Shown: positions 5,216-52,251 of the stretch, piece after piece
Layout: each line of letters opens with the position of its first letter
Numbering within the stretch: the stretch's first letter is position 1
From: Chloroflexota bacterium
GTDB taxonomy: Bacteria > Chloroflexota > Dehalococcoidia > Dehalococcoidales > JACQON01
Assembly (NCBI GenBank): GCA_016202545.1
Contig: JACQON010000028.1
Coordinates: 1 to 64,000 of the forward strand
DNA length: 64,000 bases
Direction of reading: 5' to 3'
Made by a program: the position numbers and the translations under genes
The notes under the pieces: generated by a model
Database searches by the model: none
What the model saw: the letters and a program-made list of their open reading frames with translations, nothing else
Told to the model about the DNA's origin: nothing

Positions 5216-6628
5216 ATGCCATACAGGGATTTACGCGAGTTTCTGGCGCTACTGGAAAAGAAAGGTCTTCTGGCCAGGGTCAAGGCGGAGGTAGACCCGT
5301 CGTGGGAGATAAACGGCGTCTGCAAGAAGCTTATTGACGAGGGAGGCCCGGCGGTAATCTTTGAAAAGGTCAAAGGCCATAAAGTCCCTGTTTTAGCCAA
5401 CTTGATTGGCACGCTGGAGCGCCTGGCCCTGGCACTGGAGATGCCGGCTGACGACCGCAAAATAACCGAAGAATGGATTAAGAGGACGGAGCATCCTATC
5501 CCGCCTAAAATAGTCAAGGCTGGCCCGTGCAAGGAAAACATCGTGATGGGGGACAAGGTCGACCTCAACGCTATATTCCCTCCGGTTATCTGGCACAAGG
5601 GGGACGGTGGCCCTTATATCGGCACCCTGGGGCTTCAGGTGACTAAGGACCCTGAGCAGGGATGGCAAAATGTTGGCGTTTACCGGCAGATGGTCAGGAC
5701 GAAAAACGAGACCGGCCTGTATATGCCCGTCCCGCAGCACGGCGGCATACACCTTCAGAAGTGGGCGCGGATGTATCCCGGCAAGCCCATGCCGGTGGCG
5801 GTTGCCATTGGCACTGAACCGTGCTATCTGGCGACCGGTACGGCCAAGCTGAGGCACCCGCCGGGCGAGGAGGAGTACGCCGGTGCGCTGAGGAAGGAAC
5901 CGCTGGAACTGGTCAGGTGCGAGACCTGCGACCTGTATGTGCCAGCCACCTCGGAGATTGTGCTGGAAGGCGAGGTCTATCCCGACGAGCTGAAGCCTGA
6001 CGGCCCCTTCGGGGAATACACCGGCCATCAGGGTGAAGCGCAGATGTTCAACGTCTTTCGCCTCAAAGCTATCACTCATCGCAACAACCCCATATTCCAC
6101 GGGGAAAGGGAGGGGTATCCATCGGAGAGCATATACCTCTGGCTGAAGGGGATGGAGTACGTCTTATATCCTAAAGTCATGAAGCTCCCCGGAGTGGTGG
6201 ATGTTCACATCCCCCGCCACAGTTGCGGTTTCAAAGCGATTGTTTCCATGAAGAAGCTATGGCCGGGACACGTGAACGAGGTAATTCATGCCATCTGGGG
6301 AGATATCGACCTCGGGCACTTCTTCAGGTATGTTATCGTGGTTGATGACAATATAGACATCCGCGACCCGGACCGTGTTGGCTGGGCGGTAAGCAACTAC
6401 GTTCAACCGGACCGGGATATCATGATAGCGCCGCGGTGTATCATAGACGGGCTGGACCCGTCCATGCCGTACTCCAAACGTTTCACGACCGCCAAATGGG
6501 GCGTGGACGCCACCATGCCCACCGAGGAGTATGAGGCTGAGGGGACGCAAGCGCCACCCCTGTGCGATGACCCCGATATTAAAGCCAGGGTAGTGGCCCA
6601 GTGGCAGAAGTACGGCATAAAGCTATGA
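5216..6628 (+). CDS. UbiD-family prenylated-FMN decarboxylase, copy 1
   Basis: A 470-residue cytosolic UbiD-type (de)carboxylase, which uses prenylated FMN supplied by UbiX to remove or add a carboxyl group on aromatic or unsaturated acids. The order of family blocks is intact: YRDLREFLALLE at the N-terminus, PAVIFEKVKGHKVPV near 45, HKGDGGPYIGTLG near 125, VAIGTEPCYL near 200, the active-site block PDGPFGEYTG near 262, and FHGEREGYPSE near 295. In the active-site block the first acid is Asp where ferulate decarboxylase has Glu. A second homologue follows after 28 bases and UbiX after that. The substrate is not evident; quinone precursor, aromatic acid, or an isoprenoid-related acid are all possible given the isoprenoid genes downstream. 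Confidence 0.92.
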   Translation: MPYRDLREFLALLEKKGLLARVKAEVDPSWEINGVCKKLIDEGGPAVIFEKVKGHKVPVLANLIGTLERLALALEMPADDRKITEEWIKRTEHPIPPKIVKAGPCKENIVMGDKVDLNAIFPPVIWHKGDGGPYIGTLGLQVTKDPEQGWQNVGVYRQMVRTKNETGLYMPVPQHGGIHLQKWARMYPGKPMPVAVAIGTEPCYLATGTAKLRHPPGEEEYAGALRKEPLELVRCETCDLYVPATSEIVLEGEVYPDELKPDGPFGEYTGHQGEAQMFNVFRLKAITHRNNPIFHGEREGYPSESIYLWLKGMEYVLYPKVMKLPGVVDVHIPRHSCGFKAIVSMKKLWPGHVNEVIHAIWGDIDLGHFFRYVIVVDDNIDIRDPDRVGWAVSNYVQPDRDIMIAPRCIIDGLDPSMPYSKRFTTAKWGVDATMPTEEYEAEGTQAPPLCDDPDIKARVVAQWQKYGIKL

Positions 6629-6656
6629 GTCTTAGGCCAAAAAGGGGGAAGGGATA

Positions 6657-8087
6657 ATGGCATACAAGGACTTGAGAGAGTTCATGGCGGTGCTGGAGAA
6701 GAGGGGTGAGCTGACCAGGGTCAAGGCGGAAGTAGACCCGTCGTGGGAGATAAACGGCATCACCAAACGGCTTATCGATGAGGCAGTGACCACCGGCAAA
6801 GGGCCGGCGGTGCTCTTTGAGAACATTAAGAATCACAAGGTACCGGTGCTGTCCAATGTGATTGTGACGCCGCACCGGCTGGGCCTGGTGATGGGGCTGG
6901 ACACCGAAGATGAGCGGCAGGTAAGGGACGAGTGGGTAAAGAGGATTGCGCATCCTATCCCGCCTAAAATAGTTAAAACTGGCCCGTGCAAGGAAAACAT
7001 CCTGACGGGGGACAAGGCTGACCTGAACGCCGTTTGCCCGCCGGTGCAGTGGCACAAGGGGGATGGCGGGCCGTATCTGGGGACGCTGGCGATGCAGGTG
7101 ACCAGGGACCCGGAGACGGGGGTGCAGAACGCCGGCATCTATCGGCAACTGTACTTCTCCAAAAATGAGACCAGCCTGTACATGGGCCATTTTCAGCACG
7201 GTATGATACACCTGAAGAAGTGGGCCAGGATGTACCCCGGCAAACCGATGCCGGTGGCGGCGGTGATAGGCACCGAGCCTGCCTACCTGATGGCGGCGGC
7301 CGCCAAGTTCACCCATCCGCCGGCCGAGGAGGACTACGCTGGCGGGCTGCGGGGAGAGCCGGAAGAGCTGGTGAAATGCGAGACGTGCGACCTGCACGTT
7401 CCGGCCCATGCCGAGATTGTGTTGGAAGGGGAAGTATACCCCGATGAGTTGAGGCTTGACGGCCCCTTCGGGGAGTATCCCGGCTACCTGGGTGCGGCGC
7501 AGATGTTCAACGTGTTTCACGTGAAGGCTATAACCCACCGCAACAATCCCATATTCCAGGGTGAGAGAGAAGGCTACCCATCGGAGGGGCAGTTCATGAC
7601 CGGTAAGCCGATGGAGTACCTCCTTTACTCCAGGTTCAAGGGATATAGCGGAGTAGTGGATATGCATATGCCTTACTCTGGCACTCTGTACATCCTCTAC
7701 GTCTCAATGAGGAAATTCTGGAAGGGGCAGGTCAACCAGCTAATCAACGCCATCCTGGGCGATATCGAGTGTGGCACCATAATCAAGCTCGTGGTTGTGG
7801 TGGATGACAATGTGAACGTCCGCGACATAAACCACGTCAACTGGGCCATTGCCAACCATGTCCAGCCCGACCGTGATATAGTGATAATCCCGCGTGGCCC
7901 CGAATGGGAGCTGGATGCCGCCCAGCCCTACTCCAAGCGGGGGTGGTCGGCCCACATGGGCATAGACGCCACTTTGCCGGTTGAGGAGTATGAGGCTGAG
8001 GGGACGCAAGCGCCGCCTTTGTGCGATGACCCTGATATCAGGGCCAAGGTAGTGGCCCAGTGGCAGAAATACGGCATAAAGATATAA
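6657..8087 (+). CDS. UbiD-family prenylated-FMN decarboxylase, copy 2
   Basis: A 476-residue paralogue of the preceding gene, of similar length and block order (HKGDGGPYLGTLA, IGTEPAYLM, LDGPFGEYPG, FQGEREGYPSE). The two are nearly identical at both ends: the start (KAEVDPSWEINGI) and the last 35 codons (EEYEAEGTQAPPLCDDPDI) match almost base for base. The middles differ, for example around residues 300-345. This pattern fits tandem duplication followed by divergence with gene conversion at the ends. The two may form a hetero-oligomer or handle different substrates. The start is an ATG with AAGGGGGAAGGG upstream. UbiX, needed to mature both, is the next gene. Confidence 0.92.
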   Translation: MAYKDLREFMAVLEKRGELTRVKAEVDPSWEINGITKRLIDEAVTTGKGPAVLFENIKNHKVPVLSNVIVTPHRLGLVMGLDTEDERQVRDEWVKRIAHPIPPKIVKTGPCKENILTGDKADLNAVCPPVQWHKGDGGPYLGTLAMQVTRDPETGVQNAGIYRQLYFSKNETSLYMGHFQHGMIHLKKWARMYPGKPMPVAAVIGTEPAYLMAAAAKFTHPPAEEDYAGGLRGEPEELVKCETCDLHVPAHAEIVLEGEVYPDELRLDGPFGEYPGYLGAAQMFNVFHVKAITHRNNPIFQGEREGYPSEGQFMTGKPMEYLLYSRFKGYSGVVDMHMPYSGTLYILYVSMRKFWKGQVNQLINAILGDIECGTIIKLVVVVDDNVNVRDINHVNWAIANHVQPDRDIVIIPRGPEWELDAAQPYSKRGWSAHMGIDATLPVEEYEAEGTQAPPLCDDPDIRAKVVAQWQKYGIKI

Positions 8088-17755: not shown

Positions 17756-18796
17756 ATGGAGCTCAGGCTGGAAGCGCAGTCCAACCAGCATGCCGTTGCC
17801 GGGGACGACTGGGCATACTGTGAGCGGATTCTACCCAGGGTATCCCGGACGTTCGCCCTGAACATCGCCCGCCTGGAAGGGGACATTTACCGGGCGGTCT
17901 TGCTGGGCTATTTGTTCTTCCGGATTGCCGATACCTTTGAGGATACTGCCTTTCAGGACGAGGGCCAGAAGATAGCCGTGCTTTATGACTACGCAGGGGT
18001 ATTCAAGGGGAACATGGGCCTCGATGAGCGGCTGAAGGCCTATGAACCGCTGAAGTTCAGGTGGCGTGAGGAGTCGCCGGAGAAGGACCTGATAGAGAAT
18101 GGGGACAGGGTGCTTCGCTCCTATTTCGGGCTGCCGCCCGCCTACCGGCAAATCATTGACCCTCACATCGCCAGGACATCGGAGGGCATGGCTGATTTTC
18201 AGAGACGCAAGCTGGAAAGCGGCTCCAGTCTCTTTCAGCTCCGGGACATAGATGAGCTAAGGGAGTACTGCTATTTTGTGGCCGGCATCGTTGGCGAGAT
18301 GCTCACCAAGATATTCTGCCGGCGAGAAAGCATGCTGGCATCGAGGCTGGTGCTGGAGCGGAACCAGGCGCAGTTTGGCCTGGCTTTGCAGGTCACCAAT
18401 ATCGTGAAAGACTGGCTGAAAGATACACAGCGGGGCTGGTGCTATATTCCGGCCTCGATAACGGAAAAATACGGCATCGTGCTTGACAGGGTGACCCGGC
18501 TGTCTCTCACCCAGAAGAAGAGGGTGTTGAATGAGCTTATGCCGGTGCTCCTGAGTTCCTTCAATTCAACCTTGAGCTACATTAAGGCGATTCCGGAAAG
18601 TGAAAGGCCAATCCGGATGTTCTGCATAATACCCTTTGTCCTCGCCTATAACACCGTCCGGCATGTTGCCCGGATGAGGGGCGACAAGCTGTCAAGGAGC
18701 CAGGTGGCGGCGCTGCTGGCCAGGTGCGAGTCCTTCGCCGGGTCGAACGAACTGCTGGAAAGGGACTATCTGGAAGCTTATCGTAAACTGGCTTAG
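17756..18796 (+). CDS. squalene synthase (farnesyl-diphosphate farnesyltransferase)
   Basis: A 346-residue trans-isoprenyl diphosphate synthase of the head-to-head type, joining two farnesyl diphosphates to squalene. The two acid motifs are seen in FFRIADTFEDT (about 57-67) and VTNIVKDWLKD (about 214-224). SRTFALNIARL and RGWCYIPASI are typical of the one-gene squalene synthase (SQS) type rather than the HpnC/HpnD pair, and no HpnE oxidase is in the locus. It therefore appears to do the full reductive reaction alone. The start ATG abuts the cyclase stop. Its own stop TAG is the first three bases of a MITE-like repeat end (18794), so the native C-terminus may have been trimmed or fixed by that insertion. 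Confidence 0.92.
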   Translation: MELRLEAQSNQHAVAGDDWAYCERILPRVSRTFALNIARLEGDIYRAVLLGYLFFRIADTFEDTAFQDEGQKIAVLYDYAGVFKGNMGLDERLKAYEPLKFRWREESPEKDLIENGDRVLRSYFGLPPAYRQIIDPHIARTSEGMADFQRRKLESGSSLFQLRDIDELREYCYFVAGIVGEMLTKIFCRRESMLASRLVLERNQAQFGLALQVTNIVKDWLKDTQRGWCYIPASITEKYGIVLDRVTRLSLTQKKRVLNELMPVLLSSFNSTLSYIKAIPESERPIRMFCIIPFVLAYNTVRHVARMRGDKLSRSQVAALLARCESFAGSNELLERDYLEAYRKLA

Positions 18797-18969
18797 TGTC
18801 ACGTCAGGTGAATAGGTGACTATTCTATTTCGTCAGAAATGGTGGAAGTGCCTTGAGGGGAACTCAGTCGAACGCCCATCCCCTTCAGGGTGAACCCTTC
18901 AGAGCGAGCCTTCTCGTTCCGATTAGTCGTCAGAGTGAACAGGACGAGCCCTTCTGGGTGAACCTCTGA

Positions 18970-18992
18970 CCCCCTTCCCATCGGGAAGGGGG
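18970..18992. repeat. perfect 10 bp hairpin inside MITE-like copy 1
   Basis: CCCCCTTCCC-ATC-GGGAAGGGGG. The same stem with minor base changes occurs in copies 2, 3 and 4. It is followed by AGTTAAGT and not by a T-run, so it is not a clear terminator. Confidence 0.8.
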
Positions 18993-19024
18993 AGTTAAGT
19001 AGAAGAGAGGTGGCTTGCCTCAAA

Positions 19025-19152
19025 TGTCATTCTGAGGAATGAAGTGACGAAGAATCTGGGGGTAGGGTGGCAGTGCACAGATAATCCCTGCCATCCCAAG
19101 ACCCTTCGCTACGCTCACCTGTGGCGAGGTTCGGTGACAAGTCAGGGTGACA
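19025..19152. repeat. short palindromic repeat family B, copy 1
   Basis: About 128 bp, starting TGTCATTCTGAG and ending GTCAGGGTGACA. It matches, base for base over most of its length, the reverse complement of 25061-25186. The ends form an imperfect inverted repeat of about 12 bp. It is nested in MITE-like copy 1. Confidence 0.75.
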
Positions 19153-19414
19153 TGAAGCTGGTACTTTTAGGGCAAAGCCCCTCTGAGGAGAAGGGGATAC
19201 TCGTTCCGATTACTCGTTCAGATTATCGTCAGAGTGAATCGTCAGAGTGAAAAGGGGATGAGGTCGTCAGTAAAGGGTAATGTGTGCTGAAGCCGTAATC
19301 AGTTCAGTAATTAACCTGACAGTACACTGGCATTCTTCCCTGGAGGAAGAGACCTTTAGTGACCTATCCCCTTCAGTGTGAACCCGTGAGAGTGGATGCA
19401 GGGGATGGGGCTAG

Positions 19415-23085: not shown

Positions 23086-24030
23086 ATGAAAAACGTAGCT
23101 ATCACCGGCGTATCTGGCTACATCGGCGGCAGGCTTTTATCGCGGCTGGCGAAAATAGAGTCCGTAAAGGGAATCGTTGGCCTGGATGTGAAGCCGCCGG
23201 CGGAAAAGCCGGCCAAGCTCAAGTTCTATTGCCGGGATATACTTCGGCCCTTTGGCGACATCTTTGTTGACAACCAGGTGGATACCGCCGTTCACCTGGT
23301 GTTTGTCATGAAACCCACCCATCATCATAGCCATGCCCGGCGGGTTGACATCGGCGGCATGGTCAGCTTTCTCCAGGCATGTGAGCAGGCGCGGGTGAAG
23401 CACATTCTGTATCTCAGCAGTCATACCGTGTATGGAGCGTATCCTCGTAAAGTCGAGCCGCTCACTGAAGGTTCGCCGCTGCGGCCACTGCCCGGCTTTC
23501 AGTACTCGCTGCACAAAGCCGAGGCCGAACATCTCCTCAAGGATTTTGCCGCCCGCCACGGCGATGTCCGACTGGCCATCCTGCGCAGTTGCCCGGTAAT
23601 CGGGCCAAATGCGGCCGATTCAGTAGCGGCAGTGATGTTCCAGCCGGTGATGCTCCGCCTGGCTGGCTATGACCCGCTGATGCAGTTCGTCCATGAAGAC
23701 GACCTGATTGAGCTTATGGCCATCCTTCTCCACCGGCAGCAGGGTGGCATTTTCAACGTAGCCGGCGAGGGCGAGGTACGCTACAGCGATGTTATCGCGC
23801 TGGCGGGCAGGAAAGCCATAACGCTGCCTGGATGGCTGCTGCGTCCGCTGATGGGTCTTTCCTGGACGCTGCGTCTGCAAAAGGAGTCTCCGCCCAGCGG
23901 CCTGGAGTTCATAAAGTACCCTCCCCTGGTAAGCACCGAGAAGCTGAAAAGAGAAGTCGGCTTTCAATTCCGCCATTCATCCAGGGAGGCGGTAGCCTCC
24001 TTTCTGTCTGCTAGTGTGTTGTCACGTTAA
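23086..24030 (+). CDS. NAD-dependent epimerase/dehydratase
   Basis: A 314-residue extended SDR. NVAITGVSGYIGGRLLSRL is the nucleotide-binding motif; LYLSSHTVYGAYPRK near 108 and QYSLHKAEAEH near 140 give the Ser and YxxxK catalytic residues (YSLHK). VHEDDLIELM near 203 is a usual SDR block. Last gene of the operon begun at 19415. Its last six codons (SVLSR and stop) come from the end of a MITE-like element: the element's TAG at 24012 is out of frame, and the frame closes at a TAA inside the inverted repeat, so the native tail was probably replaced. Confidence 0.9.
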   Translation: MKNVAITGVSGYIGGRLLSRLAKIESVKGIVGLDVKPPAEKPAKLKFYCRDILRPFGDIFVDNQVDTAVHLVFVMKPTHHHSHARRVDIGGMVSFLQACEQARVKHILYLSSHTVYGAYPRKVEPLTEGSPLRPLPGFQYSLHKAEAEHLLKDFAARHGDVRLAILRSCPVIGPNAADSVAAVMFQPVMLRLAGYDPLMQFVHEDDLIELMAILLHRQQGGIFNVAGEGEVRYSDVIALAGRKAITLPGWLLRPLMGLSWTLRLQKESPPSGLEFIKYPPLVSTEKLKREVGFQFRHSSREAVASFLSASVLSR

Positions 24031-24092
24031 TCATTAGACCAATTGCTGCTTGAGCACACATTACCGTTTACTGCTGACCTCATCCCCTTTAT

Positions 24093-24117
24093 CCCCTTCT
24101 CCTAAAAGGAGAAGGGG
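24093..24117. repeat. hairpin 1 of MITE-like copy 2
   Basis: CCCCTTCTCCT-AAA-AGGAGAAGGGG is a perfect 11 bp stem with a 3-base loop; the same stem is at 34082-34107 with a GATT loop. Confidence 0.85.
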
Positions 24118-24126
24118 AAGAGATTT

Positions 24127-24160
24127 AGAGAGGGGGCGTAGCCCCCTCTCTTTTGTTTTA
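24127..24160 (+). terminator. hairpin 2 of MITE-like copy 2, probable intrinsic terminator
   Basis: AGAGAGGGGGC-GTA-GCCCCCTCTCT (24127-24151) is a perfect 11 bp GC-rich stem followed by TTTGTTTTA. Together with the last T of the stem this gives a U-rich tail in the plus direction, about 100 bases after the epimerase stop. It probably ends the 19415-24030 operon. Confidence 0.65.
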
Positions 24161-24162
24161 AC

Positions 24163-24187
24163 GCCCTCTTCCCGCTGGGAAGAGGGC
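24163..24187. repeat. hairpin 3 of MITE-like copy 2
   Basis: GCCCTCTTCCC-GCT-GGGAAGAGGGC, a perfect 11 bp stem with 3-base loop; the counterpart of 34155-34177 and 32152-32174. Confidence 0.85.
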
Positions 24188-24291
24188 AGGGAGATGGGCA
24201 TTCAGCTAAGTCCTTTGGTGAATTAAGGCACTTCCTCCCACTTCTGATAAAGTAAGATAGTCATTTATCTATGTTATTGGCGATTATTTAC

Positions 24292-24318
24292 TTGACTTGA
24301 GGAACAATGTGGTAGAAT
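24292..24318 (+). promoter_or_regulatory. promoter of a probably leaderless gene
   Basis: TTGACT (24292-24297), 15 bases, TAGAAT (24313-24318). The GTG start of the next gene begins 7 bases after the -10 box, so the transcript would start at or next to the start codon. No ribosome binding site is present. Confidence 0.45.
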
Positions 24319-32050: not shown

Positions 32051-32381
32051 CAGTATCGCATCAGGCAAATAGAGGCGCTATTGTGTCAAAATGGGTAAGA
32101 AGAATATGCTTGAAATCTTTGGCTTCGCTAAGACGGACGCCCATCTCCCTACCCTCTTCCCAGCGGGAAGAGGGAGTTAAGTAAAAGAGAGGGGCTTCGC
32201 CCCTCTCTAGAAGCTCTCCCTTTCTCCTGCTCAGGAGAAGGGGTTCACCCTGGTTCCACTGAGGTCACCACGAAGTGAAGGCTCACCCTGAAGGGGATAA
32301 AAGGGGATGAGGTCGTCCGTAAATATGAGTGTGTGCGCAAAGTTGGCCTTAAGGTCCATGCGTTAGCCTGATAGGACATTA
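32051..32381. mobile_element. MITE-like element, copy 3
   Basis: About 330 bp. The left end CAGTATCGCATCAGGCAAAT is related to the TAGTGTCACGTCAGG ends. The right end read inward is TAATGTCCTATCAGGCTAA. Two perfect hairpins are at 32152-32174 (CCCTCTTCCC-AGC-GGGAAGAGGG) and 32186-32208 (AGAGAGGGGC-TTC-GCCCCTCTCT), and a third at 32223-32240. The right side (GGGGATGAGGTCGTC) matches copies 1 and 5. The TAA at the right end is the stop codon of the minus-strand metF gene. Bases 32019-32050, between the MetE-like stop and the element, hold nothing recognisable. Confidence 0.75.
32186..32208. repeat. central hairpin of MITE-like copy 3
   Basis: AGAGAGGGGC-TTC-GCCCCTCTCT, perfect 10 bp stem, same as the central hairpin of copies 2 and 4. 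It lies between two convergent genes (MetE-like and metF) and could act as a two-way terminator. Confidence 0.7.
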
Positions 32382-33998: not shown

Positions 33999-34289
33999 TA
34001 GTTTACTGTTGGGTTAATTACCGAACCCAATTTTTGTTTCAGCGCGCATTTTCGATTACTGACGACCTCATCCCCTTTTATCCCCTTCTCCTGATTAGGA
34101 GAAGGGGAAGAGATTCTAGAGAGGGGGCTGCGCCCCCTCTCTTTCACTTTAACTCCCCCTTCCCGCTGGGAAGGGGGATACAGGGGGATGGGCGTCCATA
34201 CCTGCCGTGCCGAATATTTCAGACATTGTTTCCCACGTCCATTTTCGGAACGGCGTCAATAGTATCCCTATTCACCCTGCGTTACACTA
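33999..34289. mobile_element. MITE-like element, copy 4
   Basis: 291 bp. The left end is TAGTTTACTGTTGGGTTAAT and the right end, read inward, TAGTGTAACGCAGGGTGAAT. These are imperfect terminal inverted repeats with TA at both edges. Three perfect hairpins: 34082-34107, 34118-34142 and 34155-34177. The right-end TAG is the stop codon of the NuoF-like gene on the minus strand. The element is inserted between the NuoF-like gene and metV. On the minus strand none of the hairpins is followed by a T-run, so read-through into metV-metF is possible. Confidence 0.85.
34118..34142. repeat. central hairpin of MITE-like copy 4
   Basis: AGAGAGGGGGC-TGC-GCCCCCTCTCT, perfect 11 bp stem. In the plus direction it is followed by TTCACTTT, in the minus direction by AGAATCTC. 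Confidence 0.8.
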
Positions 34290-51082: not shown

Positions 51083-52003
51083 GTGAACGAGATGTTTTTC
51101 TCCAGAAGCGGTGCTTCCAGGCTGGCCCTGATGGTGGTGGTCGGGCTGGTACTGCTCAAAGTGGCGGTGGGGGTGGTAACGGGCAGCATCAGCATCTTCG
51201 CCCAGGCGCTGGACAGCTTTCTCGACCTGTTTGCCGTGCTCATCACTGTCTTTGCTATCAGCGCGGCTGTCAGGCCTGCTGACGAGGGCCATCCCTTCGG
51301 CCACGGCAAGGTGGAGAGTATAGCCGCCATAGCCCAGGCGGTGCTCATCCTGGTGACGGCCGGACTGATAATCTACTTAGCCGTGCAGCGGCTCATCAGC
51401 GGCGTGGCCATCGAGTTGACCGAGGCCGGCATCGGGGTGATGCTGGTTTCCATAGCGGCCAGCGTTTTCCTGTCCCGCCATCTGCTCAAAGTGTCGCGGG
51501 CCACCGGTTCCATCGCGCTGGAAGCGAATGCGCGTAATGTCGCCGCCGACGTCTATTCGGCGGCCGGGGTGCTGGCGGGACTGGTGGTCATACGCTTTAC
51601 CGGCCTCGACGTTCTTGACCCGATTATCGCCATCGGAGTTGCCCTGTTCATACTGAAAAGCGCTTATGATGTTACCAGAAAATCGTTTGAGGAGCTGGTG
51701 GATGCCCGGCTGCCGGCGGAGGAAGAGGATGCGATAAAGTCCTGTATCATGGGCCAGGGCTGCCAGCTCGTTGATTTCCATGACCTGCGCACTCGTAAGG
51801 CGGGTGGCCAGCGCTATATCGAGTTGCATCTGACCATGCCGAAAAATATCAGCGTGGAAGAGTCACATCAGCTATGTGACCGCCTGGAGCGGAGCATAGA
51901 GTCCAGGCTGCCCACTGCCAGCGTGACCATTCACGTGGAGCCGTGCACTACGGAGTGCGCCCAGTGCTCCGTGTCCTGCACACTCCAGGACAGGAACGGC
52001 TAG
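51083..52003 (+). CDS. cation diffusion facilitator (Zn/Fe/Mn efflux) with Cys-rich tail
   Basis: A 306-residue CDF transporter, exchanging divalent metal for protons out of the cytosol. Membrane helices are seen across residues 14-200. QALDSFLDLFAVL is the helix 2 metal site (FDxxD-like), HPFGHGKVESIAA the signature loop and EANARNVAADVYSAAGVL helix 5 (HxxxD-like with Asn for His). The cytosolic domain ends in ECAQCSVSC, adding four closely spaced Cys with CTTEC, a soft-metal site not usual in CDFs. The GTG at 51083 or ATG at 51092 may start it. The stop TAG is the end of MITE-like copy 5. Confidence 0.92.
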   Translation: MNEMFFSRSGASRLALMVVVGLVLLKVAVGVVTGSISIFAQALDSFLDLFAVLITVFAISAAVRPADEGHPFGHGKVESIAAIAQAVLILVTAGLIIYLAVQRLISGVAIELTEAGIGVMLVSIAASVFLSRHLLKVSRATGSIALEANARNVAADVYSAAGVLAGLVVIRFTGLDVLDPIIAIGVALFILKSAYDVTRKSFEELVDARLPAEEEDAIKSCIMGQGCQLVDFHDLRTRKAGGQRYIELHLTMPKNISVEESHQLCDRLERSIESRLPTASVTIHVEPCTTECAQCSVSCTLQDRNG

Positions 52004-52251
52004 TGTACTGTCATGTTAATTATTGAACCGATTACTGCTTCAGCACGCATTATCGCTTACTGACGACCTCATCCCTTTTATCCCCTTCCCATTGGGAATG
52101 TGGTCAGGGGTTCACCCAGAAGGGCTCGTCCTGAAGGCTCGCTCTGAAGGGTTCACCCTGAAGGGGATGGGCTTCGGCTGAGTTCCCTTCAAAGCACTTT
52201 CCCCATTTCTGATAAAGCGACATGGTCATCTATTTACCTGACGAGACATTA
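52001..52251. mobile_element. MITE-like element, copy 5
   Basis: 251 bp, the shortest copy. The left end is TAGTGTACTGTCATGTTAAT; the right end read inward is TAATGTCTCGTCAGGTAAAT. It lies between convergent genes and supplies the stop codon of both: TAG (52001-52003) for the CDF transporter and TAA (52249-52251, minus strand) for the HDAC-family gene. It has only a short TTCCC-ATT-GGGAA hairpin, and its order of internal segments is the reverse complement of copy 1. Confidence 0.85.

Follow-up and report, generated by a model that had tools for sequence, protein, structure and literature searches.

To our knowledge, BoxC and PIT triplex motifs have been recognised since the 1990s with no accepted function, no accepted mode of spread and no proof of a triplex in cells. 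The motifs of Escherichia coli (PIT, BoxC or TM(ECO)) are intergenic and are laid out in three blocks, a G/C-rich hairpin and a third block that mirrors its stem; the strict TMECO pattern is CCCTCNCCCN3-6GGGNGAGGGN3GGGNGAGGG (PMC4666352). The E. coli triplex motif folds in vitro, in-vivo footprinting was reported without a stable triplex, and RNA does not form purine-motif triplexes (PMC4666352). Five cases of an inverted pair were described, and the motifs were neither linked to mobile elements nor biased to one strand (PMC4666352). Two other kinds of short repeat are comparable. MITEs of the IS630/Tc1-mariner type are short elements with inverted ends and a TA inside CTAG, the latter being the target preference of IS630 according to the title of Tenzen and Ohtsubo 1991 (listed in the references of PMC2170065). 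The GTAG/CGTC-tagged REP families are short, high-copy and mostly intergenic palindromes (PMC3733652). The literature searched on Chloroflexi MITEs and Dehalococcoides palindromes yielded nothing specific.

The locus described here lies in the window, the whole 64-kb stretch of DNA that was analysed, from a MAG of 1.74 Mb (G000). An earlier note had placed three perfect stems at positions 24093-24187 of the window, in a MITE-like repeat (copy 2), and this was correct: three perfect 11-bp hairpins are present within 95 bp. Hairpin 1 (24093-24117, plus strand) has the stem CCCCTTCTCCT and the loop AAA, and reaches 12 bp when the flanking T-A is included. Hairpin 2 (24127-24151, plus strand; stem AGAGAGGGGGC, loop GTA) is followed by TTTGTTTTAA, and hairpin 3 (stem GCCCTCTTCCC, loop GCT) occupies 24163-24187 of the same strand. 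The window contains 11 perfect hairpins of at least 10 bp with a loop of 3-8, nine of them inside these elements; ten dinucleotide shuffles of the window gave 0-2 perfect hairpins of at least 10 bp each. The fold z-scores were approximately -8 on both strands.

Copy 2 is an A-type TIR element (24012-24305, plus strand). Its left TA lies within CTAG at 24011-24014; the right end is decayed and was placed at approximately 24305 by the A-type consensus. The core cassette (24075-24198, plus strand; R1 match of 130.3 bits, E 3.5e-36) comprises a left mirror arm, hairpins 1-2-3 and a right mirror arm. Copy 4, an A-type element at 33999-34289 (plus strand), has an intact core (34063-34192) and, as previously proposed, the same ordered array as copy 2 (34081-34178). 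Copy 3 (32051-32381, minus strand; A2-type ends) had been thought to carry the hairpins in inverted order; this was wrong, as it is the same array read on the minus strand (core 32140-32267), with a CCCCTTCAGGG-type insert separating hairpin 1 from the left arm and one C-A mismatch in that hairpin. The arrays of copies 1 and 5 are damaged. Copy 5 (A-type; 52001-52251, plus strand) has a degenerate core that has lost hairpins 1 and 2, and in copy 1 (A-type; 18794-19329, minus strand) hairpin 1 is split by a nested MITE-like insert and hairpin 2 is mostly lost.

A second MITE-like sequence (GGCTTTGCC...TCATTCTGAG...) was identified at the tip of hairpin 1 in L039, L023, L034, L026 and at 18958-19266 of the window, with candidate 9-bp duplications CTACTCAGG (L039) and CCTTTAAGG (L023). 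Small tandem modules (TTCACTCTGACGA / TAATCGGAACGAG) were present between the left arm and hairpin 1 of A-type copies (L025, L033, L036, L041 and window 19200-19266). Elsewhere in the window (5216-8087), adjacent ORFs of 470 and 476 aa with 74-79% DNA similarity in the repeat search represent a tandem duplication.

Two mirror arms, overlooked by the earlier note, flank the array. Hairpins 1 and 3 each have a 10-nt arm that mirrors the adjacent stem: the left arm CCTCATCCCC (24078-24087, plus strand) mirrors the pyrimidine arm of stem 1, CCCCTTCTCC, and the right arm GGGAGATGGG (24189-24198, plus strand) mirrors the purine arm of stem 3, GGGAAGAGGG. Triplex motifs of this class have a hairpin of at least 8 bp with an adjacent third block mirroring one stem arm, and both were found in copy 2, with 9/10 positions mirrored on each side. 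The per-position mirror identity was 0.81-1.00, except at one constant non-mirror position that can be read as T.AT. The core sequences read against the strict TMECO pattern do not match it.

Three variable arm positions were found to change together with the stem pair (p = 4e-23, 1e-12 and 8e-10), with copies rather than events counted, and these values overstate the number of independent events because the copies share ancestry and non-mirror controls are also linked. Left arm position 6 and stem position 5 were C/C in 107, T/T in 34 and discordant (C/T or T/C) in 10; left arm position 3 and stem position 8 were T/T in 126, C/C in 11, T/C in 6 and C/T in 0. On the right, arm and stem were A/A in 13 and G/G in 27, with one discordant case among the A/G cells. 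An association of opposite direction was likewise seen for two non-mirror control pairings (p 9e-4 and 8e-6); this shows haplotype linkage. The weight of the arm covariation comes from the few discordant arm/stem cells in several genomes carrying both states, from the separate variation of left and right (the left arm does not track the right hairpin in a cross-control of only 10 elements), and from the lack of a templated origin for mirror repeats, which, unlike inverted or direct repeats, should not be producible by templated copying.

As far as can be read from the sequence, the outer hairpins and their arms are arranged as in potential intrastrand triplex (PIT/BoxC/TM) motifs, and form an inverted pair with a terminator-like hairpin in the middle. 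They look able to fold into triple-stranded DNA, and we infer that triplexes may form. The inverted pair is shared with the five E. coli cases; unlike these motifs, the core has a regular pair separated by a third hairpin, is located within TIR elements and has an orientation bias relative to genes; it differs in mobile-element linkage, in strand bias and in the middle hairpin. Neither third-strand covariation nor carriage by interchangeable mobile ends was found in the part of the literature covered by the search, and the strings 'covari' and 'compensat' are both absent from the text of PMC4666352.

The view that the stems are conserved and the structure is kept was supported by covariation across the genomic copies, in which stem substitutions were compensated, nearly always from one Watson-Crick pair to another. 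Both-sided changes were observed in 6/32 stem pairs versus 1.4 in shuffles, with many more in larger sets. A model-free count gave 369 perfect 10-bp stems versus 73 with one mismatch, with 20 G-T and 16 A-C, and two larger alignment sets contained 54 G-T cells and 41 A-C cells. The alignments A8/A9 gave a G-T to A-C ratio of 92:46, which was given less weight because they were fitted to a model favouring G-U and include many two-hairpin forms. Were RNA from one strand under selection, that strand should hold more G-U than A-C. As the stems are compensated and G-T is no commoner than A-C, the structure of the array is probably kept at the DNA level. In orthologous copies of two relatives (G005 and G029), the hairpins are kept while the flanks drift, and hairpin 2 shows a compensated 4-to-5 G change; the kept hairpins could also come from gene conversion among copies.

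The array is the conserved core of a repeated non-coding cassette. A covariance model built from 13 cores was searched on both strands of the 1.74-Mb genome and gave 111 matches (both strands counted), corresponding to approximately 60 loci in this MAG, which may be a lower bound since contig ends at element copies are probable assembly breaks at repeats. Contigs C6, C7, C18, C20 and C31 start, and C8 ends, in or beside element copies; C20 and C31 have an identical core sequence at their start. Core matches were present in 33/41 genomes of the order. In other classes of the phylum the matches were weaker, mostly with two hairpins between CCTCACCCCC and GGGGGTGAGG, and an unrelated hairpin forms the middle module of L344 and L345. 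A related exact pattern was present in public contigs that were, by their titles, mostly Dehalococcoidia/Dehalococcoidales MAGs; the few others were titled as Deltaproteobacteria MAGs and one cyanobacterium, Cyanosarcina radialis. The Deltaproteobacteria-titled MAG CSMAG_1231 (L167, L184, L192, L197) is probably a mislabelled record, its 89831-nt contig being equal in size to one of G031, from the order of the window. The exact core pattern was not found in the viral contigs searched.

A-type ends gave 23 matches versus 0 in the control, and GAGATTGTTTA-type ends gave 46 versus 0. The former support the placement of the array inside MITE-like elements, as CTAG was present at 31/35 A-type ends (ends preceded by C), the TA within CTAG being characteristic of the IS630 type. 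At 11 A-type ends, the end triplet is also the stop codon of the gene next to it; for comparison, 31/269 other CTAG sites are stop codons. The ends in relatives are GAGATTGTTTA[T/G]CAACCT, and in Cyanosarcina the core is flanked by TGTATACAC repeats, such that one core occurs with three or more end sets that are unrelated to each other. In G023, A-type ends surround an unrelated hairpin body. Since one core has several end sets and the A-type ends have another body, ends and bodies are separable, and we take them to be interchangeable between elements.

No IS630, IS256, DDE_Tnp_1 or Y1 transposase was found in G000 (PF13358, PF00872, PF01797 and PF01609 searched; MAG 88% complete). An autonomous element with A-type ends was not found, there being no PF13358 in G000 and three in relatives without these ends in the DNA examined. 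A Y1 (RAYT-type) gene was absent from G000 and from most high-copy genomes. Y1/RAYT, IS256, IS630 and DDE_Tnp_1 were each rejected as mobilisers, as none has a presence across the 41 genomes that fits the high-copy ones. A general 9-bp target duplication for GAGATTGTTTA ends was not seen, with one clean 9-bp case (L085). The elements resemble IS630/Tc1-mariner-type MITEs in size, ends and target, but differ in that no autonomous IS630 was found and the core is shared with elements having other ends. They resemble the REP families (PMC3733652) in being short, high-copy and mostly intergenic palindromes; the feet of the core hairpins, in the cores read, have no GTAG or CGTC tag, and G000 has no Y1.

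Genes were called by a custom hexamer script and not by a standard gene finder. In gaps between co-directional genes, antisense placement of the core predominates, 91:29 overall (p 1e-8), comprising 22:10 in G000, 61:15 in G005 and G029, and 8:4 in other relatives (hand count). This bias relative to neighbouring genes counts against the reading favoured below, which does not account for it. Stop-codon supply as its sole cause was rejected because the bias persists with the stop more than 25 nt away (27:5), as was replication strand, because elements in divergent gaps show no bias toward the majority coding strand of the contig (17:14). Between G005 and G029 (median orthologue identity of 77%), seven positions at gene 3' sides were shared versus 2.0 expected (Fisher p 5e-4), two of the seven being one shared site in G005. 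At L058:1501-1599 (G016), an element lies between a 23S rRNA-like 3' end and a downstream 5S-like sequence, the rRNAs being recognised by eye.

The earlier note offered three readings of the array. Copy 2 does have a T-run following its central stem, and hairpin 2 of copies 2, 4 and 3 tops the scan for terminator-like sites at 18.7-34.7 kb. A portable intrinsic terminator, in which hairpin 2 and its U-run end transcription and this function retains the copies at gene ends, would also be consistent with U-tail scores of at least 3 in 28/51 copies of G000 in the core-plus direction (1/51 in the other), and with the median distance of 14.5 nt from gene stop to core in the co-directional gaps of G005/G029. 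Terminator-like sites are more frequent in element copies than at ordinary gene ends, as 4/801 gene ends without an element reached that tail score in G005/G029. However, only 15 (core-plus) and 18 (core-minus) of 143 copies in G005/G029 reached it, although copies there are equally dense; most copies in relatives are not terminators by this score. The core-plus direction, which is the terminator-like one in G000, is also mostly antisense to the neighbours, opposing transcription in the 22:10 and 61:15 counts above, and E. coli PIT elements were without terminator activity in earlier work, as cited in PMC4666352. A portable terminator is thus plausible in this genome only and weak in relatives, and as a general explanation we regard it as unlikely.

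The same orientation bias would suit a core-minus sequence selected in transcripts, either as a structured RNA or as a 3' stabiliser of the mRNA, as 91:29 favours core-minus in co-directional transcripts and is accounted for neither by the contig majority strand in divergent gaps nor by stop-codon supply alone; the folds are also very stable. Little else supports an RNA with a function of its own. The model-free count shows no G-U excess over A-C, and the A8/A9 excess, in addition to its fitted origin, has the wrong sign, since core-minus wobble would read as A-C on core-plus. At the Rfam gathering score only tRNAs were found in the window, the best weak match being 24.8 versus the 56 bits required. 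With purine-motif triplexes also not forming in RNA (PMC4666352), this reading seems quite improbable. It is more improbable still that the hairpins are no more than a structure recognised by the transposase of one MITE family: the core does lie inside TIR elements with CTAG targets, but it is found between different ends, and the A-type ends carry another body in G023.

Observed features of the array are its position, copy number, spread, compensated stems and mirror-arm covariation, and the several unrelated end sets around one core. On balance, we favour the reading that the array forms the body of a non-coding mobile element, with two PIT/BoxC-type triplex motifs as an inverted pair on either side of a GC-rich middle hairpin. 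Exposure of one strand during replication, transcription or transposition would let each outer hairpin fold, and its G-rich neighbour arm could enter the groove of the folded hairpin as a purine-motif third strand (G.GC, A.AT and one constant T.AT). The cassette would spread as the cargo of terminal inverted repeats that are moved in trans; in the A family, the enzyme would be an IS630-like transposase with CTAG as its target. Bodies and ends would be swapped between elements. The triplex structure may persist through a benefit to the movement or recombination of the element, or because gene ends tolerate it; in G000, hairpin 2 may terminate in one direction as a side effect.

A further proposal, possible though rather doubtful, is that triplex-forming DNA is itself a selected cargo that passes between unrelated mobile ends, also across phyla, with a third strand that co-evolves with the stem and an orientation constrained by transcription of the neighbouring genes. 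Covariation of the third strand would provide evolutionary support for the importance of the triplex, and the patchy distribution of triplex motifs would be explained by their carriage between interchangeable mobile-element ends.
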